Notes under the pieces: model-generated | Told to the model about the DNA's origin: nothing | The model's input: the letters and a program-made list of their open reading frames with translations, nothing else | The model's database searches: none | Origin: Paracyclopina nana | Lineage: Eukaryota; Arthropoda; Copepoda; Cyclopoida; Cyclopettidae | Length of the DNA: 64,000 bases | Assembly (NCBI GenBank): GCA_019096065.1 | Contig: JAGUCH010000001.1 | Coordinates: 5,952,001 to 6,016,000 of the forward strand | Reading direction: 5' to 3' | Program-made: the position numbers and the translations under genes | Shown: piece after piece, positions 7,065 through 34,468 of the stretch | Layout of the letters: every line of letters begins with the position of its first letter | How positions within the stretch are numbered: the stretch's first letter is position 1

Positions 7065-7076
7065 CCCCACCAATAT

Positions 7077-7852
7077 TCCTAGTGTAGTAGATAGCGTCTG
7101 ACTAGCTCATTTTTTTCGTAATGATTTTATTGGTCTATGTATGAAGTTTACATAACCTAGTAGATAAGTCTTAGTAAAACCAAAACCTAATTATTAGTCT
7201 ACCTACAGCTTGTACTTAGAGCAATAAATTCATTTAAAACTATAGGAGGGATTTCACTTTGACGTAATAGTTGTAATCAAGTTTATGATCCTATGTACAG
7301 CCTGTGCATAGACCAATAAGCTTTGTTTAATTATCTAATTTTTTGTTATTGGTCTATGTAAAGGCTTTGTTTAAACCAATAATCTTTCTTCCAATAATTA
7401 GGTTCAGTTTCAAAAATTATTTTTTCTACTGCCTTGTTACTATTCGAGTAATAGTCTGTACCTAGGGTATTGAATACCTTATACTTTTCTCACATTATTT
7501 TTGTTTGTTTTTCTAGATACGCAAAGAATTGTGCTGGACAACAAGATATACGACGCTTCAATAATCAATCTGTCTACGAGCTATCTACACTTGTTATGCA
7601 TTATATTTCTATATCTGTAATTTATCTGTTTCTCCAACTTCACTTTAATGCAGTACAAGATATAAGTGTAATAGTTTTATTGCTGACCAAATAAAGTTAT
7701 AACAGCTACAGGACAATCATTAATTCATAATTATGCATAGATGAAGTAATTTTTCAAGTAAGTCATGTACAACTGTGAATATCATCATTGTTTTTGCGAA
7801 TGCATTTTTTTTGCACAGCTATTGGACAGCTTATAGATACGACAAAAAGTCT
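7077..7852. repeat. Left subterminal repeat region of the transposon
   Basis: This non-coding end holds many copies, in both orientations, of a motif built from (A)TTGGTCTATGTA, CTATGTACAGCCTGTGCATAG and AGCTTATAGATAC. Examples are near 7131, 7149, 7195, 7289, 7348, 7451 and 7831. Dense subterminal motifs of this kind are the binding sites for the accessory protein in plant En/Spm; that role here is inference. Confidence 0.6.
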
Positions 7853-10680
7853 TTAGGCCTTTAGTGCGTCACAGGTGACGCTCAACAAAATTTTTCCATC
7901 TAGCACGGCCTTGCCTTTGACCTCAGATGTTTGGACCACATAAGTTTCAGCTGAAACTGCCTCCTTGTAAGCCACTCCAATTAACTCATAGTTGAGGAAA
8001 GGCAACTCTTCTCTTTTGTACTTGGACGTTGTAATCCGGCGGCAAACATAACTGTATGGCAATTGCTCAACAACCTGATAGAAGCTTCTGTCTTGCGTAT
8101 AGATGTAGTCGTCTTTTGTGTTGGCTCTCCGGTCTCCGATTTTGACTTTCATGACACTTTTGCATGAATGAGGGCCTAAACTGGCTATGTATGCTCTACG
8201 CATAAGCTGCTTTCCAACTGACATCGTGTTGTTGTTCAGAATGACTTTAATGTACGAGAAGAACGATTCCACAGGCTCAGCACTCACTTCGCTCAAAGTA
8301 AACCTCTTTCTTGTCTCACGTAGGTGAGAGAACTCGTGTACAGTAAATGTACAGTGTTCTAGGCCAAAAACTTCTTGATAAAGGGCATAGAAGATTTTGT
8401 GAAACTCTGCCATGGGAACTTTTTCACACAGCTCCTTGTAATGCTCGTCATCAAGCAATGCAGCCCTTACCAAGTAGGAAAAAATGAGCCATGCCTTTTT
8501 CATGTTATTGTGGCTATCTCCAATCACTGATCTGGCAAACATGAATGGGGCACAAATGACAATGGCAGCATATTCTCCAGATTTGAAGTGCAACAGGCAT
8601 TCCTCCATAGATCTTGGGCGGCGATTGAAATCGCTTGGGATGCACATTTTTCGCCATTGCGCATCAAAGAGCTTCATGATTTTCTCCCTTTTCTTGGACG
8701 TCTTCAAAATGAGTGTGATCATAGCCTTTGTCAAGCCCAAGAATAGGTTATGCATAGGCTCGATTGGCACCTGCTCAACGATATCAAATCCACGCAAGAC
8801 CAAGAATGGAGAGTCACCAGTAATGCCTAGGCAATCATTGTGAGAAAGCTGCTTCTTGTATTCTTTGCGCCTTTCACATACTTTCACCCATTGACTATGA
8901 GTGCGATGGCTGTAGTTGACTGAGCTGTAAGGAAATACAAGCTTTCCTCTCCTCAAAAATTCCCCAGGGGCAAAACATCTGTCACAGCTGTAATTGCCAG
9001 CATGGCCTTTCAAGCATTTGAGCTTTGCACGCATCGGACTGTCGCAAATCACAACACGAAGTGTAAAGCCCATGTTCTGGCCATCTATAAGCCACTCACG
9101 TATTTTTCGGCGAAGATCTGTAGTATTCTCCTTTCTGTAGATGTGCACCCCTGCCAGGTAGAGATTCTCACATTCTTCAAACCTTACGACAGCAAGTGTC
9201 ATCTGTGCTGCACCACTCTTAGAGAGAGGCACTCCATCTACGGCGTAGTCATAGCCTCGTCTATAAGGTGCGACACCAGGAGGAATCTTTTCGATCTTTG
9301 CATGATACAACCAAATGTCTTTGAGCGGACAGTATGTCCATTCTGACAAGCACTCATACCTTCTCCTGGGATATTTCTTTTTTGGATATTTTGGACCGTC
9401 CACAAAAATCCGTTCACCGGTAAGCTTGTCTCTGATTTCATAGGCTATGTATGAGGTAGGTAGAACCTTTTCCCATTGCTTGCGAATTGTTTGATAGCTT
9501 TTCAGTTTTCGTCCCGGTTCATACGCTTGGATAATTGCTCGAACGACATTCCAAAAGAAATCAGTCTGTGATTCTTTCAGGACCAACTTAGCACACATGG
9601 TGAGACAAAACGTTTGAAGTGCCTCATCTTTCTCTGTTTGTGTCTTCAATGTTTTATGATGAACAACAAATGCAAGAATTTCATCATATGGCATTTTCCT
9701 AGTGCCTTCACCACTTGAAAAGAAGCCAAACGGATCATTCTTGTCTTCAATGTCAGCAATTGCAGCATCACTGTCAGATGCAGACTCCAATGTTGATTGC
9801 TGTAAATAGTAAATGATGATAAAATATATTTGCTTATTCAGCTAATACATAGCCAGTAGATTGTCTATGCAAGCGTAAAACTTACATTTGAAGTGAGTGA
9901 TTTCTCATTGTAGTCAAGAGACAATGCGTCGATTTGTTGGGCTAGCTCATCAACTCTGAACTCCAATTCATGGACAACCATTCTATTGGCCGTTGGAATC
10001 ATAGTATCAGGCTCCTTTAGTGGAGGTACTTCAGTTGGCGCTATATCATGGATAATGTCCAATGCTTGAGCTCTCAAAATGTTGTCATCCTCCTTTGACG
10101 TCTTGTACATGTCATTAATATCCGATAGATGGACAGAAGACGAGCCAGAATCTTGCGACCATGATGCATTTGTGTCTTCCTCATAATTGATGAACTTGGC
10201 AATAGGATTTGCCACTTTTTTGGCAAAACGCTCATATTTACGTTTCAGCCGATGGTTGTTGCGGCGCTCATCAGGAGAATATAGACCAGCAAAGGAGTCA
10301 CTGTCCTCAGAAGTTGGTGGCACAGAAGTTGACTTGTTCAAGTCATTGATGTCTTGATCAATCAATGGCAACGGCAGCAATGATGGCTCCACATGCTTGT
10401 ACTCTTCCCAAAGCAAAGGATTCTCCTTCAAAACACCCATTCCAACTGATGTGCAGATGTTAATGACATCACATTCAAAATGATTTTTCCCACTTCTTAG
10501 ATCCTCAATGACCTCCTCGTCTATAGGCTGTCTAGGGCCTTTGTAAGGGTAGACACGCTGTTTCTCGATCCGAATTTTTGCCTCCAATTCGTGCAAAAAC
10601 TTTTCACATGTTCGTATCTGACGTCTCTTACGTGAGCGTTCGGCTGCACTCATTATAGCAACCTTTTTCTTTCGTGGCAT
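7853..10680 (-). CDS. Tnp2-like (CMC superfamily) transposase, two exons
   Basis: Exon 1 is 10680-9886 and exon 2 is 9799-7853, joined in phase 0 across an 86-bp GT-AG intron, giving about 913 residues. I start at ATG 10680 (MPRKKK); a good 3' splice site (TTTTTCAG) lies 8 nt upstream, so a 5' UTR intron is likely. The N-terminus is basic (RSRKRRQ) and then low in complexity. The catalytic part has the hallmarks of this family: VDGVPLSKSG near residue 453, VVICDSP near 518, KGHAGNYSCDRC (CxxC near 537-540), VPIEPMHNLFLGL near 612, FTVHEFSHL and AEPVESFF near 776. The acidic residues in the first, second and last of these are candidates for the DDE triad. It would cut and rejoin element ends in the nucleus. 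The frame has no stops. Confidence 0.85.
9800..9885 (-). other. Transposase intron carrying the element's motif
   Basis: On the minus strand this intron starts GTAAGT and ends TTTACAG. It contains GCATAGACAATCTACTGGC and TATGTA, a variant of the motif found at the transposon ends and in the accessory-gene introns. Confidence 0.75.
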
Positions 10681-11229
10681 TTTGATATCTGAAAAAGTAA
10701 CGTATAAGCTATACAAACGTTAGACAGACTAATTGCCTCTTGCTATTGATACTCTAATTATAAGTTTTGTGTTCTGCTTGATATTATACCTTGTTCGTGA
10801 TTTTATTTTGATTTCTGCAATTTGACGAATTTTTTCCTAGTTACTTTTTAAAGATGTGACGATAGATCATTCAAGTAAGTCAATCTGTCCTATTTATGCC
10901 TGTGTTAGTAGAAAAAATAATTTTTAATTTTTAATTTATATTGCTGTAAAAGTGATTATTATGTAGCCCTTACTTTCATATTATTTTTTCCATTAAATAT
11001 AAAAATTAAAAAAAAATCCGTCAAATTAAATAGCGTTAAATGCCTCAGTTAGCTACGATCGCTTGACGCGAGCAGACGTGCCGGGCCATACATACAAGTA
11101 GTACATACGTCACATACAAGTACAACGGGCTGGCCAACTATTGTTGTTGCGTGCGCCATTACTGTCTGAGCGTAAGTGCTTCGGCATCAGCTGAATCGGC
11201 GACAAAAAGAAGCAACGTCAAAAAACGAA
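10681..11229. promoter_or_regulatory. Divergent promoter gap of the two transposon genes
   Basis: The two start codons (10680 minus, 11230 plus) face away from each other across 549 bp. The gap holds an AT-rich core (about 10910-11030), a GC-richer part from 11040, and near 11090-11125 a short repeat of ACATACAAGTA and TACATACGTCACATACAAGT. One copy of the element's motif (GTATAGCTTATACG read on minus) lies at 10696-10712 beside the presumed acceptor of a transposase 5' UTR intron. No clear TATA box is visible. Confidence 0.5.
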
Positions 11230-14200
11230 ATGAGTGGAAAGGAGCAAACAGATGAGGAACTGTTCCTCAAAACAGACGGTTTATGGCGTTACCAGTACTT
11301 GCTCTTTGCCAATTTGGACGCCGACCCCATTTTTCAACTAATGCCGATTGATGTGAAAGATGACGTCAACCGGACTTTGTCTGACATTTATGGAATAGAT
11401 TTGCATAGATCAATGTCATATCAGACAAGGATGATGCAAATGCCGTTCACCAAAAAGGGAAAAACAGTGCACCTGTCAGTTTTTGCTCGCGTGGAAAAAG
11501 GTAAGATCGATTTTTAGACACAGTCTGAGTAGCGTCTACATAGACTATCCAAACAGATAAAGACCAGCGTGAGCTCAGTGGATACATCAAGAAGCTGAAC
11601 AGTCGTCTACGCAAAGTGACGGGTCTTGAGCGTATAGATGAATACAACAAGATGGTGAAACTGTTCTACGACAAGATTCTATGTGACTTCAACTACCCTG
11701 AGATTGGAAAGGATGAGCTTGTCAGCTACAAGCAACGTGCATCTCGTTCAAGCAAAGTCGAGATGCCAAAATCAACTGATGATGAGAGGCCAAGTTCTCG
11801 TTTGCCGTCTCCTGCTAAAGAGATGCCATCAAAGTCTACCGCTGATGCAGCGAAAATTGCCAAAAAGGTATGCATTCATAATTGGCTGTACATAGCTTAT
11901 AGATACCTTATGTAATTATTATCTAGATTTTGACGGATAAGACAAGACCCGATGATGAGCCATCTCAACAGCAGCTAGAAGCTGCAGGAGTTAAAGCCAA
12001 GGAGACCAAGAAAACTGCAGCGTCTAAGAAGGAGACTCCTACTAAGAAGACGACCATCACTCATCATGCTGAGGTTCATCAAGCTCCTAAGAAGGTTCCT
12101 CCGCCACCTAAGAAGGATGCACCCAAAAAAGATGCAGCAAAGGCTCCTAACCCACCCGTTAATACGCTACGTAAAAGCACTCGACAGACCAAGCGTGCTA
12201 TCAGTCCAGTCAGCATTTCTGACTCTGAGAGTCAAGGCAGCGTGTCAAAAAAGAAAAAGACAACCGCTTATGATGCTCCAGCGACATCAAGAGGGTCATC
12301 TAAGGTGCCAAGTGCTCCACCATCTGAACAGCAGTCATCAGATGATGATTTCGTCACTGAGAAGGAGAGGACTAAGACAACAGAGAAGGCAAGGTCTAGA
12401 GAGGCCATACCTAGACGATCCACGAGCCCAACAAGAGAAACATTGAACCAAACTTTCGGGAATGAAATTGAAACTGCTGACGAATTCAATGTTACTTTTG
12501 GTGATGATCCCTCAACATCTACAGCAGTCACCTCTGCTGATCAAGATCGTCGGCTTTATGCTCATTTGGCCCAATTTGCAGTGAAGTATCAAGCTGAATC
12601 TGAGACGTCTATGAGAAAAATACTCAAAGAGTTCAATGATGCATCGGCTAAGGAGGACAAAGACTCGAAAAAGATTATTAAAGAGCTGAAAGAGTTCTAC
12701 AATGATCCAGAAAATCCAATTAGGAAGGATGTCAAGAAGCTGGAAACTCGACTAAATACTCAGTCGATTCAAATTGGAGTAAGTTAACCTTATCTATAAG
12801 CTACGTAATGGCTACTTAGTATAGTTTACTTTTTTCAGAAACTTGTTGCTTCTATGAGCCAAATGACAAGCAATTTCAACCTACTCACCAATCAAATGTT
12901 AAAGGCTTTGAGCTCAATGAAGCAGATGGGTGACTCTCGAGCTGACATGGAATCTAGAGGCGCTTTCATCATTGGTCAGCTATTTCCATTGGATGTTATG
13001 GGCAAGTGTGCTGATGTCATCTTTGCATCACACTTTGCTCAGGAAATGGTGTTTGCTTTCCTCAAGCAGCACCTTACTGGATTGGCTAGCGATGTGACGT
13101 TGCGTCATATTGCAAAAATCATCTTTGAGAGCTGCTTCAATCAAATTGCTAGAGGACACCTTATTATAGGTGAACAAATTGGGTAAGTAACGTATCTATA
13201 CGCTATGTAAACTCTTGTCACTAAAAAGAATTTTAACTTTATTTGCAGTGCTTGGAAGCAAATTGATTGGTTTAAGAGGCCGTTGCCTTTTGGATTCATG
13301 GACATGATGAAGTTCAAAGTTATGCCTTTCATCATTGCTTACCTTAAATCTCTTGGGAGAGAAATGATTGAAAACTTTGCCACATTCAAGACTGTCATCT
13401 CAAACCTGTGCAGCAATGGCCGTACTCGAGTGGAAGAAATTGCTGCTTTGGGTTCAAGTGATGATGACGACTTCATAGACAAGCTGCTAGCACTTGACAC
13501 ACTCTACCATGACAGAAATAAGGTAAAAACAAATAATTACATAGCCTGTAAGTAGCTTATAGATAAGGTAATTCTTTGCAGCACTCTTTGCCAGCAAACA
13601 AGCAAACAGCTCCATCACGTGAAGATTACATCAAACGGATTGGTGCACGCACACTACCAAGAGGTGGTAAACCAGTGCTGCTTGATTACCCCAAATGCTT
13701 TGACGTTGTCCGTGACAAGTCCATGCAGGATGATTTGAGTGTCTATGATACTCTTTGCGTTCTTTGCGTCAGTGCAAATGAAACCGGACGTAATTGGAGG
13801 AAGCTGACTTTTGAGAAGACAAAATTTGTCGAAGAGGTACGTTATGAATAGCCTATCTACTGCCTAGGTAAACCGTGTTTTTATAGTTACCGGATGAATA
13901 CCAACGACTGCTCCGTGATCATCCAACAATTGCTACCATTGTTGACCACCTCAAAGACTTGAATATCTACACTGGAAGTGACGGAAATACAAGAGACTTT
14001 GGACAAAAGTCAAGTCAACCAGCTAATACACAGCCGAGGCAAAGCCAGTCTAGTGGTAGTGTTGAGGAAGGAAATCTGCCTGGAGCAAGCACTTCACAAA
14101 AAGATGAGATACGCCCTCATTTTTCATTGAAGAAAGCACTTAGAGGTTTTCAATCTCAACAAGTGTCTCCAATGAAGAAAGTATATTCACCATCTGTTAG

Positions 14201-15110
14201 CCCTGACGACATAGACAAGAAGGGAAAGACACAGCCCAAGACAAAGAAGCCGGTAAGCAGATATTTAGCGTATACATAGTCTATGAATAGATGATATAAG
14301 CGTTTATTATAGGCTACTCGAAAGAAACGACAGGCTAAAAAAGTTGATGAATCTGACACTGAGACTGAGGAAGAAACAACTACTGATGAATCGAGAGTAA
14401 TGCCAATCGCTTTTCTGGAAAGTGAAGGCGAAGAGAGTGGAAGTGACATACTATATCTTGAAGAGATTGAACTTGAGAAGCGAGCAGCTGAAAAAGCTTC
14501 TGCCGAGGCAGTAGATAAGCAGTCCAAAGAGATAGAAGCTGAGGAAGAAGAAAAGGAGGACGAAGATGAAGAGGAGAAGGAAGATGAACAAGAGAAAGAT
14601 CAAGAAGAAGATGAGGAAAATGAGGAAAGGAACAATGACAAAGATGATGATGATGATCAGGAAGGAGGAAATGCAGCTGAAGGGTCTGAGCCTCCTCAGG
14701 AGGAACATGAACAGGATGATGGCAACAGAGAGGCAAGTGCTGAAAAAGAAGATGAATCATCTAACAAGGAAGTAGATGAACAGCCACCGCTTGCACAAGA
14801 TGACTCTGAATATGATCCTAAGTTAAAAGAGGCTGACTTTGATATCAATCCGATCAATGATACTTCCAATTTCGTAAAGTCCGATCAGCTACTAAGCGCT
14901 TGCAATACTACCCGATCTATCGGCTATGAAGGAGACATTTTGACCTTGGAGGATGTTTCATCTTTCCTCATTGAAGCCAGCAAGGACTATCAACCCCCAG
15001 TAAGTCCCTATTCTACAAATCCTACTCATATGCATACATCCTTATAAGATTAGCCAATTTCCTTATACCTTAAATAGTTTGACTTTTTATTTCAGCATGA
15101 TGGATTTTAA
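11230..15110 (+). CDS. Nine-exon transposon accessory protein, unknown family
   Basis: Exons: 11230-11500, 11557-11867, 11927-12778, 12839-13182, 13249-13522, 13582-13836, 13887-14252, 14313-14999 and 15096-15110. All eight introns are GT-AG, 50-96 bp, and keep one frame of 1125 codons (1124 residues plus TAA). The start is ATG 11230 (MSGKEQTDEE); upstream sequence in frame does not look coding. Residues 1-90 form a compact domain I do not recognise. Exon 3 (about 195-478) is rich in K, S, T and P, with basic clusters that could be nuclear signals. Exons 4-7 (about 479-890) look globular. Exon 8 has a long acidic run (about 966-1010). No zinc finger, BEN or HTH pattern is obvious. By position it matches the TnpA-type partner of En/Spm, which binds subterminal repeats; that function is inference. 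Confidence 0.8.
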
Positions 15111-15864
15111 AATGATTTGGAATGAGCATGGCAATCCTATAAGAAAATCAACTGTGGAAATGGCAATGAAGAAGTAGTACAAACAGCTACTAGATCAACA
15201 TACAAGAAACAATCCAGTGAAGCGACGATTGCCTTAATATTTATTATTTCTCTAATCAATTATCTATGCAATTATTTACTTCTGAAACAGCATTTATGGA
15301 TATATTTTTGGAAAAATAAAGCTTATTCATACTCTATACAGACTCTATGTAACATGCGATCGATGATGAACGTAGCTTATAGTTGCAATCAATCTATTGG
15401 AAGACATCTATTTGCTTGTCAGCAAGCCCAGCGGCAATCTTGTATAGCTTGTCATCTTCAACTTATGTATTGCCTGAAAATAATAAGGTATGTAGACATG
15501 TAGGAAATGAAAAATTACTGTCTATTATCAAGGCTTATGGTAAGAGAATTGAAAGAATCATCGCTAGAGTCTATTTAATTGTTGGCAGACATAAACTGTA
15601 CTTGATGATAATCAATATAGCCTATTTTTGTAACTCTCAATATACTGTATGCAACCAAAAAAATAAGACCCTATCAAGACTGTATAAAAAATTGATTGGC
15701 CTCTCAGAGGGATAAATTGGGGCCGAAACACAAATAGATATTGATTTTTGAGAGGGGGTACATAGACCAGTAAACGTCACATTTTGGGAACATGGTATTG
15801 GCTATGAACCTTCTAATGCAAAGCTGATACATAGCAACTTAATACCCTATCTAGTAAAGTGATT
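15111..15864. repeat. Right subterminal repeat region of the transposon
   Basis: Motif variants like those at the left end recur here, for example CTCTATACAGACTCTATGTAA near 15330 (about 20 nt), GTAGCTTATAGTT near 15371, GTACATAGACCAG near 15760, GATACATAGC near 15823 and CCTATCTAG near 15847. AATAAA at about 15316 could end the accessory mRNA. A 110-codon open frame (15383-15715) overlaps the repeats and has no family signature. Confidence 0.55.
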
Positions 15865-16214
15865 ATATTGGTGGGGAAATGTAGTTGGAAAATCAGATAA
15901 ATAAAACAAAGCCCACTAACGCTAAATTGCTGGCTAGATTAAAATCACTTTTTATGGTGAGCAAATAAAGTGCAATGGGACACTTGTCATTGTCAAGTCA
16001 AGTGCAAAAGTCACAGTAACTATTCAAGTGTGAGGAATCCAAACCATTTGCTGCAAAACTTTTTGCAAGTAGCTAATCGGGCCTCGCCTTTGATTTATGC
16101 GGCTAGGACTGCATACCCAACCTTCAAATACTCCCAAAACAAGATTATACAAGAATACATTAACAATAAATAAGTAGTCAAAGCATTGTTCATAAAGATT
16201 TGATGCACATAAAA

Positions 16215-17700
16215 ACAATCTGAACAATCTGAACAAACTGAACATTCTGAACAATCTGAACAATCCGAACAATCTGAACAATCCGAACAATCTGAACAAT
16301 CTGAACAATGTGAACAAACTGAACATTCTGAACAATCTGAACAATCCGAACAATCTGAACAATCCGAACATTCTGAACAATCCGAACAATCCAAACATTC
16401 TGAACATTCTGAACAATCCGAACAATCCGAACATTCTGAACAATCTGAACAATCTGAACAATCCAAACAATCTGAACATTCTGAACAATCTGAACAATCC
16501 GAACAATCTGAACAATCTGAACATTCTGAACAATCTGAACAATCAGAACAATCAGAACAATCTGAACAAACTGAAAATTCTGAACAATCCGAACATTCTG
16601 AACAATTTGAAGAATCTGAACATTCTGAACAATCTGAAATATCTGAACAAACTGAACATTCTGAACAATCCGAACAATCCGAACAATCCGAACATTCTGA
16701 ACAATTTGAAGAATCTGAAGAATCTGAACAATCCAAACATTCTGAACATTCTGAACAATCTGAACATTCCGAACAATCTGAACATTCTGAACAATCTGAA
16801 ATATCTGAACAAACTGAACATTCTGAACAATCCGAACAATCTGAACATTCTGAACAATCTGAACAATCCGAACAATCTGAACAATCTGAACATTCTGAAC
16901 AATCTGAACAATCTGAACAATCTGAACAATCAGAACAATCTGAACAATCTGAACAATCTGAACAAACTGAAAATTCTGAACAATCCGAACATTCTGAACA
17001 ATTTGAAGAATCTGAACATTCTGAACAATCTGAAATATCTGAACAATCTGAACAATCTCAACAATCTGAAGAATCTGAACAATCTGAACATTCTGAACAA
17101 TATGAACAAACTGAACATTCTGAACAGTCCGAACAATCTGAACATTCTGAATATTCTGAACAATCCGAACAATCCAAACAATCTGAACAAACTGAACATT
17201 CTGAACAATCTGAACAATCCGAACAATCTGAACATTCTGAACAATCTGAACAATCCGAACAATCTGAACAATCTGAACAATCTGAACATTCTGAACAATT
17301 CTGAACAATCTGAACAATCCGAACAATCTGATCATTCTGAACAATCTGAACAATCCGAACAATCTGAACAATCTGAACATTCTGAACAATCCGAACAATC
17401 TGAACAATACGAACATTCTTAACCATCCAAACAATCTGAACAATCCGAACATTCTGTACAATCCAAACAATCTGAAAATTCTGAACAATCCGAACATTCT
17501 GAACTATCCGAACAATCTGAACAATCTGAACAAACTGAACATTCTGAACATTCCGATCATTCTGAACAATCCGAACAATCTGAACAATCCGAACAATCTG
17601 AACATTCTGAACAATCAGAACAATGCAAACATTCTGACCAATCCCAACAATCCAAAAAATCTGAACATTCTGAACAATTCAAACATTCTGAACAATCCGT
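16215..17700. repeat. 9-bp minisatellite in left foldback arm
   Basis: About 1.5 kb of a 9-bp unit in three main variants: GAACAATCT, GAACAATCC and GAACATTCT. Because 9 is a multiple of 3, long open frames appear on both strands and in several frames at once. They encode only short-period peptides and are not genes. A few one-base slips (for example near 17299) break the period. Confidence 0.95.
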
Positions 17701-20730: not shown

Positions 20731-21781
20731 ATGGTAATTATAATAGCACATTCTCACAAAAGACCGAAAGCTCACTCTTCTCCCCCACGCATAGGCCCAG
20801 CCACCACAAGATATAGCTGCTGCGGTGGCCCTTGAGGTCAACCGCCAAATGAGAGCCAACGCTGCTGTTCAGCGTCGGCCTCAACAACTCCAACTGCTCC
20901 GCGAGACGGATAGCCGCTCCTTCCAGCAATGGCGGATGCATATCGAGTCCCAATTCGAGGACTCGATAGAGCCGGAAGTCACCAAGAAGATGCTGATCAA
21001 GGCATCTATTGTCGGCCTTGCGTTGGAAATGATCAATTCCATCGACAAGAAGTCGAGCAATGACACGTACACCTACAAGCACTACCTCGACGACCTTGAA
21101 AAGGCCTTTGTGGACGAGTCGGCCCAAGAGGCCGCCAGGGTGGCATACGACACCGCCGCGCAGGGTCCCCATGAATCCGTAATGACCTGGGCGGCACGCA
21201 TCAAGTCGCTCTACCTGAGGGCTTTCGCCAATGACGCACTGCGGTGCGCCAAGGTCGACAAGGATCCAGAGGTCATTAGGAAGTTCACTATCAATCTGCG
21301 GGACCCTCAGACACGTTGGCTGGTAATCGCCAGCAAATATGATACGCTGACGGAGGCCGCTTCCAATGCATCCTCCAAGGAGTGCCTGGTAGGATTAGCC
21401 GGCGGCAAGGCCAACCCCCTGGGGCAAGGGGGCATCATGCAAATCACCCAAGAGGGCACCTCAGATCAACCCGACGTCGCCAAGATCATCGCCGCTCTAG
21501 GCGACAAGGCTAACATGAGATGCTACGGCTGCGGCGGCTACGGCCATCTCAAGGCTCAATGCACCAACCAACGCCAAAACGGCCAACGAGGGCGAGGAGG
21601 ATTCCGGGGCCGGGGACGTGGCGGCCGCGGGCGTGGCAGTAACAATCCATACCACGCCGCCCCGCCGGTCTCGCCCCAAGAATATAATAAATATCGCAAC
21701 GCGGCCATCGCACATGTGGCCAGTGCCCCCACGGACGCCTACACCTGGGAGGCGCCAAAAAACGGAGCCAGCCGGTCCTAA
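20731..21781 (+). CDS. gag: Gag with an intron after the start codon
   Basis: The open frame begins upstream of 20825 but has no good early ATG. An ATG at 20731 is followed at once by GTAATT, and a polypyrimidine tract ending GCATAG closes at 20794. Removing 20734-20794 (61 bp) puts the ATG in frame with the rest (20795-21781, TAA at 21779). The alternative is ATG 20849 in the same frame. The C-terminal part has one CCHC zinc knuckle (21521-21562, C-x2-C-x4-H-x4-C) and an RGG-rich tail, both for RNA binding and packaging. The frame ends 16 nt after a slippery heptamer that leads into pro. The upstream ATG also matches the leader-ATG style of retroviruses with spliced messages. Confidence 0.85.
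21757..21763 (+). promoter_or_regulatory. Slippery heptamer A_AAA_AAC for -1 frameshift
   Basis: In the gag frame the codons read CCA AAA AAC, so the heptamer is in the right phase. Pro lies in the -1 frame, open across this site, and gag stops 16 nt later. This is the textbook signal for programmed -1 frameshifting. Confidence 0.8.
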
Positions 21782-21795
21782 GGGACCGGCCATCA

Positions 21796-22899
21796 ATGGA
21801 ACCATCCATCACCTCACCAAACACGTTCACATCTGACAAGGCCCGATCATTCCTCGCCCATATTTCCAACATTAATAAATCATACGTATCTGAAGTTCCA
21901 ATACGCCTCAACAACGTCAAATCAAGAGCACTCATCGACAGCGGTAATACGTGGAGGTCGGTCATCTCCTCCACGCTTGCAACCAAATTGGGGTTCACAA
22001 AAGCTCAACTTGCGCCCCTGATAGGAGAAACTGTCAACACAGCGGGCCAAAATCAATCTCTAGAAATACTCGGCGAGGTACCGAAACCATTGATGCTTCA
22101 CATCGGCACCTACCCGCAACCTTTCCCATTTCGACCAGCTGTCATAGCTAACCTCACCATGGACGTCAACCTGTCGGGGCCCTTCATGAAAGCCCACGAC
22201 ATAGACCAGCTACATAGTGCCAACTCGCTCCGCATTCGAGGACGAATGATCAAGTTGGCAGGGGGGACACTTAATGAAAATGACAGTCGCGCAATCAACG
22301 GCCATGCCGTCTACACACGGGGTGAAACCACAGTGGGGCCAATGTCTTGTTGCGCCATTCCCGCAAAAATCCCCACCTGGGCCCGATCGCCGCACATCGA
22401 TGGGATTGTTGAAGGATCAGGGGACTTCATGGAGGCCACTGAGCTGCACCCCTGGCAGCGAGCCCTCATCCGACCAGATGAAAAGGGCAACTGCGTTGTC
22501 GGGGTTATCAACACTACCGCAGAGCCTCTCATTATCCGCAACAACACCCGGTACGGGCAAGTTGAAGGCTTGAGGCGAGTACCCACCGTGGCCAAGCTGG
22601 CAGCTGGAAGCTACGTAGCCAAGCTCGAGGGGGCCCAAACCCGGCCGCAGGGCCAGTACACGGCCGAGATGGCCCAAACCTTCATTCAAGAATTCGACCT
22701 AGAAAACAACGACATCTTGAACACCCCTCAGCTAAAGCTCGCACCTTGGCCCTGCTGCTACAATACCAGGACACCTTCAGCCTCGATGGGTCCTCGGGCC
22801 AAACCGACTTGGCCGAGCACCGCATCGATATCATCCCGGGTACTCAGCCCATTAACATCCGCCGGCGGCCCATCAACCCGCACTTGCAGAAGTCGCTAG
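21796..22899 (+). CDS. pro: Aspartic protease frame of the Gypsy element
   Basis: This frame is -1 to gag and is open through the slippery site upstream, so it is probably made as gag-pro fusion; ATG 21796 is only its first methionine. A retropepsin active-site motif DSG lies at residues 48-50 (21937-21945) in the context ALIDSGNTW. The rest (about 300 residues) is a linker region before the reverse transcriptase. The homologous reading leaves this frame near 22730-22745 and continues in the pol frame; the remaining 150 nt of this frame look non-coding. Confidence 0.8.
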   Translation: MEPSITSPNTFTSDKARSFLAHISNINKSYVSEVPIRLNNVKSRALIDSGNTWRSVISSTLATKLGFTKAQLAPLIGETVNTAGQNQSLEILGEVPKPLMLHIGTYPQPFPFRPAVIANLTMDVNLSGPFMKAHDIDQLHSANSLRIRGRMIKLAGGTLNENDSRAINGHAVYTRGETTVGPMSCCAIPAKIPTWARSPHIDGIVEGSGDFMEATELHPWQRALIRPDEKGNCVVGVINTTAEPLIIRNNTRYGQVEGLRRVPTVAKLAAGSYVAKLEGAQTRPQGQYTAEMAQTFIQEFDLENNDILNTPQLKLAPWPCCYNTRTPSASMGPRAKPTWPSTASISSRVLSPLTSAGGPSTRTCRSR

Positions 22900-25800
22900 A
22901 AGAACAAGTCCAGAAATGGCTCCAGGAAGGCATCATCGTCCCTATTCAGTCGCCCTGGTGCGCGCCGCTGGTTCCGGTCACCAAGAAGAATGGGAAGACC
23001 CGGTGGTGCGTAGATTACCGCGCACTGAACAAGGTAACCATCGTCGACACGCATCCCATTGGCGACATTCGGGATAACCTCAATCGGCTGGCGCACTCGC
23101 AAGTATTCTCTACCCTGGATACGACGGGAGCCTTTCACCACGTTCCCGTGAGGGCCGAGGACATCCCGAAGACAGCATTCGCGGCCAATCACTCAACGTA
23201 CGCATTCGCCTACATGCCGTTCGGCCTCACCAACGCGCCCCGGACGTATGCGCGCCTCATCCAGCGGGTCTTGGAAGGGATCCCATACGACATTGCCTTG
23301 CCATACCTCGACGACGTGCTGATCCACAGCCGCGATGTAGAATCTCACTTCGGCCACCTGCAACGGGTACTGGACGCCCATCAACGGGCTGGCCTCAAAC
23401 TGCAACCATCCAAATGCCACCTGTTCCGCCGTCGCATCACGTACCTGGGGCACGTCATCACCCCTGAGGGCCTCTCTGTGGTCCCCGAGTACATCGACGT
23501 GGTCAAGAAGTGGCCCCTGCCACGAACCCGGCGGCAGCTACGCATCTTCCTGGGAAAGTGCGGCTATTACCGGTCCTTCATCAAGGATTACCAGAAGGTC
23601 GCCAAGGCGTTGACGGACAAACTCAGCCGGGAAGAAGATGTTCCCGACACCGCCGAGTTCGAACCCCCGCTGGAATACGTTGCCGCTTTTGAGGAGCTTA
23701 AGAAGCGGCTGTGCATGGCGCCCATCCTGGCTTTCCCCGATTTTGAGAGCCCGCAGCCATTCATCCTGGATACCGACTGGAGCGGGGACAACCAGTGCGT
23801 GGGGGCCGTCCTGTCGCAAGTACAAGGGGGAAAGGAGCGAGTCATCCTCTTTGGGGCCAAGAAGCTGACCCGGAGCCAGGCTAACTACTCCGCCACCCAA
23901 GGGGAACTCGCTGCCGTCATCATCTGGCTGCGCAAGTGGCGGTATTACCTCCAATATCGGCCTTTCATCCTCCGCACGGACCATGCCGCCCTGCAATGGA
24001 TTCGCACCATGGAGGAGCCCCGTAGCATGCTTGCCAGGTGGCTGGAGACCATCAGCCAGTTTGACTTCAAGGTCGTCCACCGGGCCGGAACCAAGCACGC
24101 CAACGCCGACGCCCTGAGTCGCGCCGAGCACGTCACCGACACCGAGGGCACGGACGTGTCCAATGAGAGCTGCGCGGGCGTCCAAGCGATGATAGCCTCG
24201 GCCGAGGCTGCCCTGGACCTGGCCAACCCCGCCGAGTGGATCCAGGGGCAAACAGAGGACGAGGATTTGCAACTGGTGCGGCGACTGATCAGCCAGCAGA
24301 GCCGACCGAGCCCTGAGCACAAAGAGGCCGCCTCCCATCGAGGCAAGATCCTGCTGGGCCTCTTTGACAGCCTCTACCTGGATGATCAAGGTCTCCTTCG
24401 GTACAAGAAGGAAGAAGGACAAGGCCGAGAGGCTCGCCACCTGGTCGTGGTTCCTCGATCCTCGGAAGAAGGGCTAGTGAGGCACATTCACGAAACCATG
24501 GGCCATCAGGGCAGAGACACCACTGTTGACCGGGTCTCCCGCCGGTTCTACATGCCCAACGCCACCCGAGTTGCCGCGGAGGTCGTGGCCACCTGCCGCA
24601 CCTGCCAGAAACATCAGCCGGAGACTGCGGACCAACGTCACTCACTACATTCCCACCGGGCGGGCTATCCCTGGCAAAGGGTTGCCATCGACTACGTGGG
24701 GCCCCTCAAGCCCCCTGTCGACGGACATCAGTACCTCTTCACCGTACGTGACCTCTTCAGCCGATGGATCGAGGCTTTCCCATGCGCCTCGGCCAACGCT
24801 GACACCGCCGTGAGGTTCCTGACCTCAGAGATCATCCCGCGATATGGGCTAATGGAGAACCTCCATTCTGACCGAGGCACCCACTTCACCGCCGCCCTGT
24901 TCCAGCAAGTAGCCAAAGCACTAGGTGTCAGGCACTCTACCACGCCGGCCTACAACCCTAAGTCTAACTGGGTTGAACGGGCCCACCGGGACCTCAACGG
25001 CCTCCTGGCCAAACTGGTCTGCGGGCGACCATCCCGCTGGAAGGAAGTACTGCCCGTCGCCCTGTTTATCATGCGCACCACCAAATGCCGCATGACCGGC
25101 TACGCCCCGTATGAATTGCTATTTGTGCGGCCTGCCACCTCGCAACTGGACCTTCTGTTTGGAGACCCCCAACCACTTCTGAGAGAGGCCTCTGAGGCCG
25201 GGCAAGTTGCCCAGGCCCTCAAGGCTCGAATCCAGGCAGCCCATGAATGGGCCCGAAAGAACATGGCCACATCGATCCACCGACAAAGGATGGCCTACCA
25301 CAAGGACAAAACGACGTATGTCCCGGGGCAACAGGTGTGGCTGTACACGCCCACCGTGGCCCGCCACATCTCCAAGAAGCTCCAAACCTTCTGGTCAGGC
25401 CCCTGGACCATACTTAGGAAGGTCAACGACGTGACCTTCGAGATCTTGCCTGACCCCTCATGGATTCGAAAGAAGTCCGAGGTCGTCTCGATCGACAGGC
25501 TCAAATTGTACCGGGCAACGGCGGAAGATGCCCACGATGGCAATGCCGGCAACCCGCCGCCAGCCAATGCAGATCTATCCATGCGAGGTGATGAGTTTGC
25601 TGAAGATGTTGCGCTCCCTTCCGATGATGAAGGCGACAGTGAGAACAACATCGAGCTCCCAACAACCGGCCACGAAACGGTATCAGCACCGTCACCTCGG
25701 GAAACACGGTACCGCAAACGTAGGACCCAGGCGGAAATGCTGCAACAAGAAACAGCAGATTTCCTGGGGGCCGAAGTTGAGGTTGCCCATGGAGCATCAT

Positions 25801-26021
25801 CTCCTGCAACCAGAACCAGATCACGCTCAGGCCAAAAATCAGATCAACCAGACCCAGAGCTACCTCCGCTGGCACCAATCAATATGCCGCCATACAGACC
25901 CCTGGTAGCACAGCCTACGGTCACGATGCCACAATTCAGGCCACTGCCTGAAATGAGCGATTCTGAGAATGATGATTTTGCTACACCAACAAATTCGAGC
26001 AGTGCTTCAAGCACAGAATAA
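22746..26021 (+). CDS. pol: Pol: reverse transcriptase, RNase H, integrase
   Basis: From the first Leu (TTG 22746; the frame is open further upstream) the order is RT, RNase H, integrase, about 1091 residues. RT has FSTLDTTGAFHHV and the catalytic YLDD at 187-190. RNase H has ILDTDWSGDNQCVGAVLSQ, TQGELAA and RTDHAAL. Integrase has an HHCC zinc module (HIHETMGH ... CRTCQKH), then AIDYVGP (D649), HSDRG (D709) and NWVERAH (E744), a DD35E triad. A GPW module follows near the C-terminus. The order RT-RH-IN defines Ty3/Gypsy. The tail after about residue 930 is acidic and proline-rich. It is in the -1 frame relative to pro. Confidence 0.93.
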   Translation: MALLLQYQDTFSLDGSSGQTDLAEHRIDIIPGTQPINIRRRPINPHLQKSLEEQVQKWLQEGIIVPIQSPWCAPLVPVTKKNGKTRWCVDYRALNKVTIVDTHPIGDIRDNLNRLAHSQVFSTLDTTGAFHHVPVRAEDIPKTAFAANHSTYAFAYMPFGLTNAPRTYARLIQRVLEGIPYDIALPYLDDVLIHSRDVESHFGHLQRVLDAHQRAGLKLQPSKCHLFRRRITYLGHVITPEGLSVVPEYIDVVKKWPLPRTRRQLRIFLGKCGYYRSFIKDYQKVAKALTDKLSREEDVPDTAEFEPPLEYVAAFEELKKRLCMAPILAFPDFESPQPFILDTDWSGDNQCVGAVLSQVQGGKERVILFGAKKLTRSQANYSATQGELAAVIIWLRKWRYYLQYRPFILRTDHAALQWIRTMEEPRSMLARWLETISQFDFKVVHRAGTKHANADALSRAEHVTDTEGTDVSNESCAGVQAMIASAEAALDLANPAEWIQGQTEDEDLQLVRRLISQQSRPSPEHKEAASHRGKILLGLFDSLYLDDQGLLRYKKEEGQGREARHLVVVPRSSEEGLVRHIHETMGHQGRDTTVDRVSRRFYMPNATRVAAEVVATCRTCQKHQPETADQRHSLHSHRAGYPWQRVAIDYVGPLKPPVDGHQYLFTVRDLFSRWIEAFPCASANADTAVRFLTSEIIPRYGLMENLHSDRGTHFTAALFQQVAKALGVRHSTTPAYNPKSNWVERAHRDLNGLLAKLVCGRPSRWKEVLPVALFIMRTTKCRMTGYAPYELLFVRPATSQLDLLFGDPQPLLREASEAGQVAQALKARIQAAHEWARKNMATSIHRQRMAYHKDKTTYVPGQQVWLYTPTVARHISKKLQTFWSGPWTILRKVNDVTFEILPDPSWIRKKSEVVSIDRLKLYRATAEDAHDGNAGNPPPANADLSMRGDEFAEDVALPSDDEGDSENNIELPTTGHETVSAPSPRETRYRKRRTQAEMLQQETADFLGAEVEVAHGASSPATRTRSRSGQKSDQPDPELPPLAPINMPPYRPLVAQPTVTMPQFRPLPEMSDSENDDFATPTNSSSASSTE

Positions 26022-26209
26022 CAGACGAATGAGCAGCACAACAAAAAGACGGCCGCAAAATTTTGGGGGCCCCCCTAAGTATACTTTGAAAATTCTGCGG
26101 CTTGAAAGAAAGCGCAATTAATAAAGAAATAATAGCAGCACAAACCGGCAGGTGTACAATAATGAGGCAGCATGTCAACACGTTTCCTTTACTCTCTTTT
26201 CCAGAAGCA

Positions 26210-28537
26210 ATGTACTTCACAATACTGATGACGTTCACACTACTACTCGAGGTGCCAAGCGCACAACCCCGGCCTCAACCTGCTCTACAGGAAGGAGGAG
26301 ACGGACCACCTGAGGACCCGGCTGCCACCTTCACGGTGTTTGACTGCGAGTCACCAAAATCAACCCACGAGAGCGTCGACTTGAATGACCCGGACGAATG
26401 CGATGATATCGGCACCACCTATGAATCGGCTGTCAACATCACCGTGCAGGTGCTGCAGACTGCGACGACCAAACCCGTCGCCGCCCACCGTTGCCACGTG
26501 ACCCTGACCCGCGAAGTGACCAGATGCGGGTTCGACAGCGTCAGCTATGGGACCCAGATCGTTGCTTACCACCAGCCCTATACCGTGTCGCCCCAGGCCT
26601 GCCGCAAGGCGGTGGAACGGGGCTACCTGATCGTCGAGGGCCAACGGGTGAATGTGACCCTCAACGTGCCCGCCAACCTGGCTTACTTCTCTCGAGGAGG
26701 TCTTGACGGAGACCACCGATGCAGGACCATGTCATTCAGCCACAACGGTGTCATGTATCACCGCTCTTACGAGCAGACCCGGATCGACGCCCTTGTCACC
26801 GCTGTCTATGGAAAACTGCACACCAGCTCTGGACGAGTGGTGTTCGATAATCACATCGTGGCCAACTACCGGGACAAGATCGTCCACGACACGCTCGAAG
26901 GCACCATGGTATGGGAAGCTCATGACACCACCTGCATGGAAGAGACCTCTGAGGTCTATCAAGGGCCCGCTTCGCTATACCCGCACCAGAACTCCACCAT
27001 GCTAGGTCAGGTGGGGGATCTGCTCCTGATTGCCCGCGAAGAGGAATCCAGATACGCAGGATTTGTCCTTAAGGGGGTCCAGTCGACCTGCCAGCGGCGG
27101 GTCTTCCGGACTCAGCTGAGGGACTTTGCAGTCGTCCTTCTCCGCCCGGGCGAGGCTCCCATCGCCGCGTCGACCCACCTGACGGAAGAGGTCCACCACG
27201 CTCACGTGCAAACCCAACTGGCTTTCCTGCACGCCGAGCACGCCCTGCATCTCGACGACCGGTTCAAATTCCTGCAGGACCTCATCTGCAAGAATGAGCG
27301 GAGCATCCTGCACACCAAGCTGCAGGACATGGCCAGCGGTGGGTCCTCCTACGCCACGCTTGACTCCCACGGGCCCGGCCATTTGGTCACCCGGGCTGGG
27401 GCGGTCGCCTACATCACCAGCTGCTACCCGATGCAGGCCATGACGCGTGCCTTCCCTAACTGCACGCAGGAGATCCCCGTGTTGGTCGGGAACCACTCCC
27501 GGTTCGCGGATCCCCTCTCCTTCATCTTGGTGGACCGGCCCAGCATCATACCCTGCGACGCCATCACGCCTGTGAAGTGGAGGATCCAGGGACACTGGAT
27601 GTGTGCTACTCCTAGCATCCACTCCTGCACGCCGCCATCGCAATTGGACCCCACCTCAGATCGACAACATGGACGCCCCTACGAGATCGGTCGGGGCCTA
27701 GGAGGTGGTATCTACTCCGCCCAGCAGCAGGCTGAGCACGCCCTCTACCTGCAGCTGTACCACGCGCGCGAGGCCGTGGTCACCACTCTGACGTCCAACG
27801 TCCTGAGGAACAGCTTCGCACGCGGATCGGGGGCCACCACCCTCTGGTCCGAGGACGACATCGACATGATGGTTGACCAGGTGGGCAACGCCCTCATCCC
27901 CTTCTTTTCGACCGTGGGGAAATACTGGAGCTACATGACCGGAGGTTTGGTGATCCTGGGCCTCATCAAGATCATCCTAGGCTCTATCATCCGTATGATT
28001 ATCCTGTATCGTCGCCGGGGACTGGGGTGGTGGTTGATGTATGGCCTGTGGCACACTGCCTTCATGGCTGTCGAACTCCCCTGGCGCATGGTAGCCAACC
28101 TGGGTAACGACGGACCCTTGTTCCCTGGCGACGACGATGAGGATGATGGCCACCCGGATTTCCGGCGCCGACCTCGCTGGAAGCGAGACCACCGAGAACG
28201 AGCGGCCACCGAGCTCAGTGACTTCACTGTGCAAGATGGTTCGGAAGCGGGAGAGAAAGACCCTTTGGATGCTCCAGACAAGTCGACATCGCCCCTCAAG
28301 GCTCTCCGCCGGTGGACGCGGCCCGACAAGGAGACCCAAGCATATCAGGACCTCCAAGCCCAGATCCGTACGATTCACCAGCAATACACGGATCTATACG
28401 GGGTCCTTCAGCAGACCCTTCCCCAGGCACGCATGGTTGACGCGAATGGGACCCAGCCCAGCGCTCCCGCCATGGAGGGTCCCCCTCGAGGCTCCCTGCT
28501 AGACCTGACTCAATCCGTCACTGCGAGGACACAGTAA
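26210..28537 (+). CDS. env: Envelope-like glycoprotein of the Gypsy element
   Basis: The open frame begins before 26162, but ATG 26210 gives the best start: it encodes a typical signal peptide (hydrophobic run, then SAQP). It lies 5 nt after an excellent 3' splice site (polypyrimidine tract and CCAG, ending 26204), as expected for a spliced env message. The product is about 775 residues: a cysteine-rich ectodomain with several N-x-S/T sites, a glycine-rich GRGLGGG stretch, a strong membrane segment near residue 575-600, a second hydrophobic stretch, and an acidic charged tail. I see no clear RxKR furin site. It is not obviously the baculovirus F-like env of insect errantiviruses. The N-terminal FDC...C pattern recalls Jingchuvirales-type glycoproteins known from arthropod LTR elements; that is a tentative impression. 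Confidence 0.8.
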   Translation: MYFTILMTFTLLLEVPSAQPRPQPALQEGGDGPPEDPAATFTVFDCESPKSTHESVDLNDPDECDDIGTTYESAVNITVQVLQTATTKPVAAHRCHVTLTREVTRCGFDSVSYGTQIVAYHQPYTVSPQACRKAVERGYLIVEGQRVNVTLNVPANLAYFSRGGLDGDHRCRTMSFSHNGVMYHRSYEQTRIDALVTAVYGKLHTSSGRVVFDNHIVANYRDKIVHDTLEGTMVWEAHDTTCMEETSEVYQGPASLYPHQNSTMLGQVGDLLLIAREEESRYAGFVLKGVQSTCQRRVFRTQLRDFAVVLLRPGEAPIAASTHLTEEVHHAHVQTQLAFLHAEHALHLDDRFKFLQDLICKNERSILHTKLQDMASGGSSYATLDSHGPGHLVTRAGAVAYITSCYPMQAMTRAFPNCTQEIPVLVGNHSRFADPLSFILVDRPSIIPCDAITPVKWRIQGHWMCATPSIHSCTPPSQLDPTSDRQHGRPYEIGRGLGGGIYSAQQQAEHALYLQLYHAREAVVTTLTSNVLRNSFARGSGATTLWSEDDIDMMVDQVGNALIPFFSTVGKYWSYMTGGLVILGLIKIILGSIIRMIILYRRRGLGWWLMYGLWHTAFMAVELPWRMVANLGNDGPLFPGDDDEDDGHPDFRRRPRWKRDHRERAATELSDFTVQDGSEAGEKDPLDAPDKSTSPLKALRRWTRPDKETQAYQDLQAQIRTIHQQYTDLYGVLQQTLPQARMVDANGTQPSAPAMEGPPRGSLLDLTQSVTARTQ

Positions 28538-32399: not shown

Positions 32400-34345
32400 A
32401 AATCTTCTAGTTTTGAAGAAACGGATTGTTCAGAATGTTTGAATTGTTCAGAATGTTCGGATTTTTTGGATTGTTGGGATTGGTCAGAATGTTTGGATTG
32501 TTCTGATTGTTCAGAATGTTCAGATTGTTCGGATTGTTCAGATTGTTCGGATTGTTCAGAATGATTGGAATGTTCAGATTGTTCGGATTGTTCAGAATGT
32601 TCAGATTGTTCGGATTGTTCAGATTGTTCAGAATGTTCAGAATGCTCAGATTGTTCGGATTGTTCAGAATGTTCAGAATGCTCAGATTGTTCGGATTGTT
32701 CAGAATGATCGGATTGTTCGGATTGTTCAGAATGTTCGGATTGTTCAGCATGTTCGGATTGTTCAGAATGCTCAGATTGTTCGGATTGTTCAGAATGATC
32801 GGAATCTTCAGAATGATCAGATTGTTCAGAATGTTCAGAATGTTCAGAATGTTCAGATTGTTCGGATTGTTCAGAATGATCAGATAGTTCGGATTGTTCA
32901 GATTGTTAAGAATGTTCAGAATGTTCAGATTGTTTGGATTGTTCAGAATGTTCAGAATGCTCAGATTGTTCGGATTGTTCAGAATGATCGGATTGTTCGG
33001 ATTGTTCAGAATGTTTGGATTGTTCAGCATGTTCGGATTGTTCAGAATGCTCAGATTGTTCGGATTGTTAAGAATGATCGGATTGTTCAGAATGATCGGA
33101 TTGTTCAGATTGTTAAGAATGTTCAGAATGTTCAGATTGTTCGGATTGTTCAGAATGCTCAGATTGTTCGGATTGTTCAGAATGATCGGATTATTCAGAA
33201 TGATTGGATTGTTCAGAATGTTCAGAATGTTCAGATTGTTCGGATTGTTCAGAATGTTCAGATTGTTCGGATTGTTCAGAATGTTCAGATGGTTTGGATT
33301 GTTCAGAATGTTCAGATTGTTCGGAATGTTCAGATTGTTCAGAATGTTCGGATTGTTCAGCATGTTCGGATTGTTCAGCATGTTCGGATTGTTCAGAATG
33401 CTCAGAATGTTCGGATTGTTCAGAATGTTCAGATTGTTCAGATTGTTCGGATTGTTCAGAATGTTCAGATTGTTTGGATTGTTCAGAATGTTCAGATTGT
33501 TCGGATTGTTCAGATTGTTCAGAATGTTCAGAATGTTCAGATTGTTCGGATTGTTCAGAATGTTCAGAATGTTCAGATTGTTCGGATTGTTCAGAATGTT
33601 CAGAATGTTCAGTTTGTTCGGATTGTTCAGAATGTTCAGATTGTTCGGATTGTTCGGATAGTTCAGAATGTTCAGAATGTTCAGATTGTTCGGATTGTTC
33701 GGATAGTTCAGAATGTTCAGATTGTTCGGATTGTTCAGAATGTTCAGATTGTTCAGATTGTTCAGAATGTTCAGAATGTTCAGATTGTACGGATTGTTCA
33801 GAATGCTCAGAATGTTCAGATTGTTCAGAATGCTCAGATTGTTCAGAATGTTCAGATTGTTCAGATTGTTCGGATTGTTCAGAATGTTCGGATTGTTCAG
33901 ATTGTTCAGAATGTTCAGATTGTTCGGATTGTTCAGATTGTTCAGATTGTTCAGAATGATCGGAATGTTCAGAATGATCGGATTGTTCAGAATGTTCAGA
34001 TTGTTTGGATTGTTCAGAATGTTCAGATTGTTCGGATTGTTCGGATTGTTCAGAATGTTCAGATTGTTCAGAATGTTTAGAATGTTCAGATTGTTCGGAT
34101 TGTTCAGAATGTTCAGAATGTTTGGATAGTTCGGATTGTTGAGAATGCTCAGAATGTTCGGATTGTTCAGAATGTTCAGATTGTTCAGATTGTTCAGAAT
34201 GTTTGGATTGTTCAGAATGTTCGGATTGTTCAGAATGTTCGGATTGTTCAGAATGTTCAGATTGTTCGGATTGTTCAGAATGTTCAGAATGTTCAGATTG
34301 TTCAGAATGTTCAGATTGTTCAGAATGTTCAGATTGTTCAGATTG
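32400..34345. repeat. 9-bp minisatellite in right foldback arm
   Basis: About 1.9 kb of the complement of the left-arm array (GATTGTTCG, GATTGTTCA, GAATGTTCA). Long open frames in several frames are an effect of the period, not genes. The array is about 450 bp longer than its partner, as expected from slippage. Confidence 0.95.
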
Positions 34346-34468
34346 TTTTTATGTGCATCAAATCTTTTTGAATAATGTTTTGATTACTTATGTTTTGTTA
34401 ATGTAGTCTTTTATGATATTGCTTTGGGAGTATTTGAAGGTTGGGTATGCAGTCCTGGCCATTTATGC

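Follow-up and report, generated by a model that had tools for sequence, protein, structure and literature searches.

We examined a 64,000-nucleotide (nt) stretch of the genome of the copepod Paracyclopina nana (GenBank assembly GCA_019096065.1, contig JAGUCH010000001.1, positions 5,952,001 to 6,016,000 of the forward strand; hereafter the window), which holds a DNA transposon with two genes, one for a transposase and one for an accessory protein. A first-pass annotation of the window had reported that introns of both genes carry a short motif also found at the ends of the element, and had offered two explanations: either the intronic sites serve one of the element's own proteins in regulating or coating it, or the introns descend from short mobile units that came from the element ends. 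We find that the motif is a run of 11-base-pair (bp) units whose sequence differs among related transposon families and which extends from the noncoding ends through the introns and, more weakly, into coding exons. A DNA-binding protein encoded by the element itself probably reads it. The element and its genes are as follows (window coordinates).

7065..15876, no strand: whole transposon, with termini CCCCACCAATAT...ATATTGGTGGGG, 12-bp inverted repeats, and a 2-bp target duplication (AA) on either side
7853..10680, minus strand: CMC-type transposase gene, 913 amino acids, with one 86-nt intron (9800-9885)
11230..15111, plus strand: accessory protein gene, 1125 amino acids, with eight introns

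The borders were set from two near-identical copies elsewhere in the genome (L011 and L012), which are alike up to GGTGGGG; the window element has the same termini, and a 2-bp duplication is present in 5/5 copies for which both ends were located. The transposase has no Pfam match above cut-off, and the structure predicted for its exon from the single sequence was unusable (mean predicted local distance difference test score 34). D184/D188, D253, C272-x2-C275, H488-x3-H492, and E511 (numbered on the protein of the big exon) are conserved in all 20 aligned transposase exons, and their order (D, D, C(2)C, H(3)H, E) fits the CMCT clade as defined in the available text of PMC12730594; the same order suggests which of the D and E residues would be catalytic. 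The duplication also lies within the 2-5 bp range given there, whereas the termini, CCCCAC..GTGGGG, differ from the usual CA..TG.

The genome searched comprises 92 Mb in ten contigs. A search with the transposase gave at least 63 matches (50 of 237 candidates scored). Five copy pairs are 99.4-100% identical across 3.8-4.1 kb, so some families have presumably moved recently. The left end of the window element matched only itself, and this element therefore has no direct siblings for comparison. The set of 20 elements leaves out three with stops (L023, L025, L026), five near-duplicates at 99.4-100% identity (L012, L017, L021, L030, L035), and L038, which was left out although it has no DNA match to L037.

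Gene models are based on reading frame and alignment alone. The seven accessory introns listed by the first-pass annotation are all GT..AG and consistent with the frame, and there is an eighth (15002-15094). The accessory protein has no Pfam match and no convincing match in PDB; profile searches against both gave chance-level matches only. The introns and noncoding parts of the element, with their motif sites as scored below, are as follows.

11501..11556, plus strand: accessory intron 1, site 11514-11557 (the cluster passes the intron end by one base); the least well recognized of the seven when held out (p 0.114)
11868..11926, plus strand: accessory intron 2, site 11877-11920, with the perfect 17-mer at 11889
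12779..12838, plus strand: accessory intron 3, site 12787-12819
13183..13248, plus strand: accessory intron 4, site cluster 13172-13221, starting 11 bases ahead of the intron
13523..13581, plus strand: accessory intron 5, site 13537-13569, units TACATAGCCTG TAAGTAGCTTA TAGATAAGGTA
13837..13886, plus strand: accessory intron 6, site 13839-13882
14253..14312, plus strand: accessory intron 7, site 14261-14304
15002..15094, plus strand: accessory intron 8, no convincing site (best match 11/17; no model match at the threshold used)
9800..9885, minus strand: transposase intron, site 9840-9877 (scored as held-out sequence by the accessory-intron model: z 4.3, 1/300 shuffles as good)
10695..10727, no strand: site directly upstream of the transposase start codon
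7065..7852, no strand: left noncoding end, sites 7087-7119, 7288-7320, 7447-7479, and 7811-7843
15112..15876, no strand: right noncoding end, sites 15320-15352 and 15816-15848

Scored as a 17-mer, the motif is matched at 12, 17, 16, 16, 15, 12, and 13 of 17 positions in accessory introns 1-7 and at 13/17 in the transposase intron, as had been claimed, and the site said to lie near the presumed acceptor of the 5' untranslated region is the one just upstream of the transposase start. Matches of at least 12/17 number 14 per 589 nt in the nine introns, 5 per 772 nt in the left end, and 8 per 749 nt in the right end (thus the reported repetition at both ends holds, with 13 matches in 1521 nt), compared with 5 per 6121 nt in exons and 10 per 53,200 nt in the remaining window. 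Such a match occurs in 8/9 introns, compared with at most four in 500 mononucleotide shuffles. The exact 17-mer occurs once in the genome, in the window element, and allowing up to two mismatches yields 31 genome-wide matches versus 19 for a reversed control pattern. Thus, the 17-mer by itself is a weak genome-wide marker, and its local density is the special feature. At the chosen threshold of the 33-bp model described below, the 8.8-kb element holds 25 site clusters, with mid-points spaced 85-824 bp, versus 5 across 52.8 kb elsewhere in the window. The accessory-intron sites score highest, in part because the model was trained on them; outside them, the best scores are 15.9 in the right end, 10.9 in the left end, 9.6 in the transposase intron, and 8.6 in an exon.

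Paired matches spaced 11 bp pointed to the 11-bp unit (exemplified by intron 5). About three such units in a row occur at both ends, in the 5' leader, and in the transposase intron as well as 7/8 of the accessory introns. Models 33 bp long were trained separately on the introns of each family, and a lag of 11 gave the strongest self-correlation of the motif model in 10/10 families (mean 0.48, versus at most 0.07 at other lags from 5 to 17). The period is also evident in raw sequence (z 11.5 for introns, 4.2 for ends); exons show the codon period, and other window DNA has no such peak. Lag 11 is again on top (z 3.6) when left ends from 11 copies outside training are pooled. Within most sites the units have diverged yet remain in register. 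Both strands are used in 9/10 families, and in D47 all intronic sites lie on one strand. The register of 11 bp, about one helical turn, suggests a protein that reads one face of the helix.

The families were defined from relatives in the same genome. Nine further accessory copies were located using a purpose-written splice-aware alignment, which recovered the introns of the window element (the last off by one or two bases). Eight stand beside related transposases, and the ninth is a relic, C7 (L043, C7:5918301-5925800), with an in-frame stop, no transposase in the examined stretch, and introns that mostly keep position. By eye, the sequence upstream of this relic resembles a membrane-protein gene. 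In the central region, the eight copies aligned (C7 outside) are 18-53% identical to the window protein. There are also more distant relatives of this region at ~23-37% identity (e.g., C2:12187750, C4:467369, C3:6287392, and C7:5772498).

Despite this divergence, intron positions are largely kept. Residue and phase agree in 10/10 copies for introns 4 and 5, in 9/10 for intron 6, and for intron 1 in the 9/9 copies that reach it; introns 2, 3, and 7 lie in poorly conserved stretches, in which the phase mostly agrees and the place does so roughly (C7 intron 2 and C6 intron 7 are uncertain because of shifted positions). Because most positions are kept across much diverged copies, the introns must be old, and the comparison of intron presence among copies that the first-pass annotation had recommended argues against an introner origin. 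It should be noted that these counts leave out intron 8 of the window and predicted introns off the seven positions (three in C1b, two in C3, three in C7, two in D44, and one each in D45 and D46), some of which may be real. Introns 1-3 of C3 and intron 7 of C7 were unrecovered, and introns longer than 75 nt were re-ended at the first acceptor that keeps the frame.

Across 66 introns from the ten copies, similarity within a copy is 12.22 versus 8.28 between copies. The between-copy value equals that of dinucleotide-shuffled introns (8.28), and even introns at the same position in different copies score 8.27. When family labels were permuted within positions 2000 times, the maximum was 9.32. Held-out introns were recognized at p < 0.05 by models built from their sister introns in 55/66 cases. 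What introns of one copy share is an inner motif alone, variable in place and on either strand. The sequence of the motif is not common to all ten copies, whereas its 11-bp period is. Motifs of C1b and C3 are related, as are those of D45 with D46 and D47, and those of the window element with C2 (by eye and by cross-matches), and by eye the ten copies fall into about four motif groups.

The specificity extends beyond the accessory introns. For seven transposase introns, which were outside training, the model of the same family ranked first of ten in five cases and second in two (for C2, D44, and D45, a shorter GT..AG inside the predicted intron was taken, and none was usable in C3 or D46). In the noncoding ends, the best match was to the introns of the same family in 8/9 families; C7, which has no known ends and no transposase, is outside the end and exon tests. 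As a proxy for host introns, sets of seven neighboring GT..AG segments gave a median similarity of 7.99, and the 7/73 sets above 9.5 all overlap a minisatellite at 32423-34348. The first-pass annotation had held that its idea would fail if the motif were as frequent in host introns or in shuffled sequence. Shuffles do not reproduce the pattern; host sequence does not either, judging by proxy only, from the GT..AG segments and the low match rate in 53 kb.

The statement that exons lack the motif, on the other hand, was not confirmed. Coding sequences were compared with synonymous-codon shuffles that preserve the protein and codon usage, and in a stricter version also the next-base context. With the 33-bp model, the transposase coding sequence of the window has 14 weak matches versus 1.3 in shuffles (0/200 reach 14), and the accessory coding sequence has five versus 1.1 (1/200 as good). 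The big transposase exon exceeds context-preserving shuffles in 8/9 families. Its mean z is 3.9 with models of the same family and 0.65 with those of other families, and the family's own model ranks first in 6/9. We consider it likely that the exon sites are real. Their positions also appear to be partly kept: the four best exon sites per family coincide 34 times at homologous places of the alignment versus 17.5 under the null (0/400 as good), the clearest shared place being alignment columns 560-571, used by 7/9 families. This is suggestive of positional conservation. The sites in coding exons of the window are as follows (no strand assigned).

8077-8109, 8171-8214, and 8262-8294: sites in the transposase coding exon; 8171-8214 is the place used by 7/9 families
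8717..8766: site in the transposase coding exon
9425..9474: site in the transposase coding exon
10514..10546: site in transposase coding exon 1
14015-14047, 14495-14527, 14910-14942, and also 12391-12423: weak sites in accessory coding exons

We infer from this pattern, with a probability of about two in three, that a sequence-specific double-stranded DNA-binding protein encoded by the element, most likely the accessory protein, reads runs of about three 11-bp units along the element. Under this model, the runs would be maintained in the ends and introns and, less strongly and via synonymous codons, in exons. Binding along the length would mark the element as self and keep it accessible (coating or anti-silencing, as for VANC on VANDAL), and the same binding may pair the ends for transposition (as for TnpA on En/Spm). 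Protein and sites would change together, and we propose that this is why the motif differs among families while the 11-bp register, the intron positions, and some exon positions stay. Family specificity in three compartments, use of both strands, a single register, and retention through motif turnover would all be expected if the sites coevolve with a DNA-binding protein.

If there is a protein reader, the accessory protein is the probable one, given that it is the product of an extra gene and diverges faster (in C6, for example, 53% versus 64% identity); the transposase is an unlikely candidate for the role. As for what binding does, the balance tips slightly toward coating or anti-silencing, which we favor over mere end pairing because the sites span the whole length, and transpososome assembly or autoregulation is somewhat less likely. 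The first of the two explanations offered earlier fits a motif that is family-specific, common to introns, ends, and exons, and present on both strands. We would give even odds to the fullest version, a whole-element self-address code in 11-bp steps, exons included, in which places stay fixed while coevolution rewrites the site sequence, with several such codes in one genome.

Several observations weigh against this interpretation. The accessory protein has no sequence match to any known DNA-binding domain in Pfam or PDB, and its intron 8 lacks a site by both the 17-mer scoring and the 33-bp model. The relic C7, which has the weakest within-copy signal of the ten copies (9.11), passes the held-out test in just 2/6 introns. 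For introns of C3, the best-matching ends are those of C1b and D46, with their own in third place, and the left ends of C3, D46, and D47 contain a single match each (at a threshold giving ~1 match per 5 kb of other window DNA). Lag 11 is merely fourth-best in the introns plus ends of C6, and it is best in just 1/11 of the further left ends taken singly. Individual exon sites give a weak signal, and D46 shows none (31/200 shuffles as good); in exon ranking, the family's own model is second in C6 and C1b (behind that of C3) and fourth in D46 (behind those of D47, D44, and D45). Coincidence of exon sites between different motif groups is marginal (19 versus 12.6; 19/400 as good). Finally, when exon and left end were compared by 14-mers without a model, in 17 of 20 elements, no own-family signal emerged. 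This test is silent even where the trained model sees a signal, and we read it as insensitive, though it is a negative.

The alternative that fares best is that the protein acts as TnpA does, mainly joining the ends and controlling the element's own promoter, with internal sites as by-products or sinks. Sites do occur at both ends and adjoining the transposase start, and En/Spm, per the available text of PMC2613891, is a CMC element that makes its DNA-binding protein separately. Yet sites over the whole length, mid-exon too, exceed what end pairing or promoter control needs, and we regard this alternative as unlikely. A passive cause that needs no reader, be it base composition, local gene conversion, or slippage of 11-bp repeats, is considerably less probable still. 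Slippage does yield tandem 11-bp units (e.g., GGATAAACTCA, repeated in D44 intron 1), but the units of most sites are diverged and in register, exon sites arise through synonymous choice, and neither dinucleotide shuffles nor host GT..AG sets, apart from those on a minisatellite, reproduce the similarity. That the motif acts in RNA, as a splicing or transcript-retention signal for a binding protein of the element or host, would suit its strength in introns and the single strand used in D47; both orientations in 9/10 families and the presence of a family-specific sequence in ends and coding exons make it highly improbable. Introners are entire introns, nearly identical to one another, that were gained recently at many unrelated positions. 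We rejected an introner origin, to which we give almost no chance: introns and ends do have sequence in common, but intron positions and phases are shared by much diverged copies, homologous introns are no more alike than shuffled ones, only an inner motif of varying place and strand is common, and it occurs in exons too.

The remainder of the window contains host-type genes of animal-like character (with SH2/SH3, C-type lectin, and monooxygenase domains) and, beside the transposon, a long terminal repeat (LTR)-type element at 20795-28537. The latter has a gag-like frame with a PNMA match and a pol frame with reverse transcriptase, RNase H, and integrase. Its third frame matches Monjiviricetes_fusion (viral fusion glycoprotein, E 4e-72), by which we identify this frame as a predicted envelope-like gene of negative-strand-virus type. 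Two long minisatellites, 16214-17697 and 32423-34348, flank the LTR-type element, and their 9-bp units are similar but inverted relative to each other (AACAATCTG versus GATTGTTCAG-type). Other look-alike inverted pairs in the window are 29421/30726 and 29626/30065.

There are close precedents in plants. VANC21 of Arabidopsis binds the introns, intergenic regions, and terminal parts of VANDAL21 through a short motif, as described in the available text of PMC5735166. In the transposons examined here, a family-specific motif is likewise found in the element's own introns, intergenic DNA, and terminal noncoding DNA. In the available portions of PMC5735166 and PMC10398659, the likeness also takes in tandem repeats and motifs that differ between related families; in VANDAL, a Mutator-like transposon, the protein of the element binds the motif and removes silencing marks. 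The copepod elements differ in their CMC-type transposase, non-plant host, and accessory protein without a known match, as well as in the 11-bp register kept in ten copies, the shared intron positions, and the weak exon sites. Regarding the last of these, VANC21 coding-region probes were without the motif, so far as the accessible text of PMC5735166 goes, unlike the exons here. By analogy, the accessory protein probably works like VANC, a claim about mode of action and not about membership.

TnpA of En/Spm and the proteins of other plant CACTA elements offer a second comparison, because these too are CMC-type elements in which a separate protein binds repeated motifs near the ends (available text of PMC2613891). 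According to the same partial source, motifs differ between CACTA families and have been proposed to coevolve with the protein. The motifs reported in that text are subterminal, whereas here introns and exons carry them as well; the copepod element has a 2-bp rather than a 3-bp duplication and termini of CCCCAC, and the proposed likeness to TnpA concerns mode of action. Introners, as presented in the portion of PMC9860276 at hand, resemble the present case in having repeated sequence inside introns, and differ in that introns here are old, at shared positions, with an inner motif alone common within a copy.

A limited literature search aimed at this pattern found no animal case, nor did it meet a non-plant CMC setting, a fixed register, or exon-embedded sites. 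If our interpretation is correct, these transposons would provide a non-plant counterpart of VANC-type self-recognition, independently arisen as far as visible, in another kind of transposon, and a comparative series of protein-motif pairs within one genome for following how binder and target change. Exon sites made by synonymous choice would mean that a mobile element can carry two codes in one sequence. By this analogy, the closest working model is VANC21 on VANDAL21, and the closest system by element type is TnpA of En/Spm.

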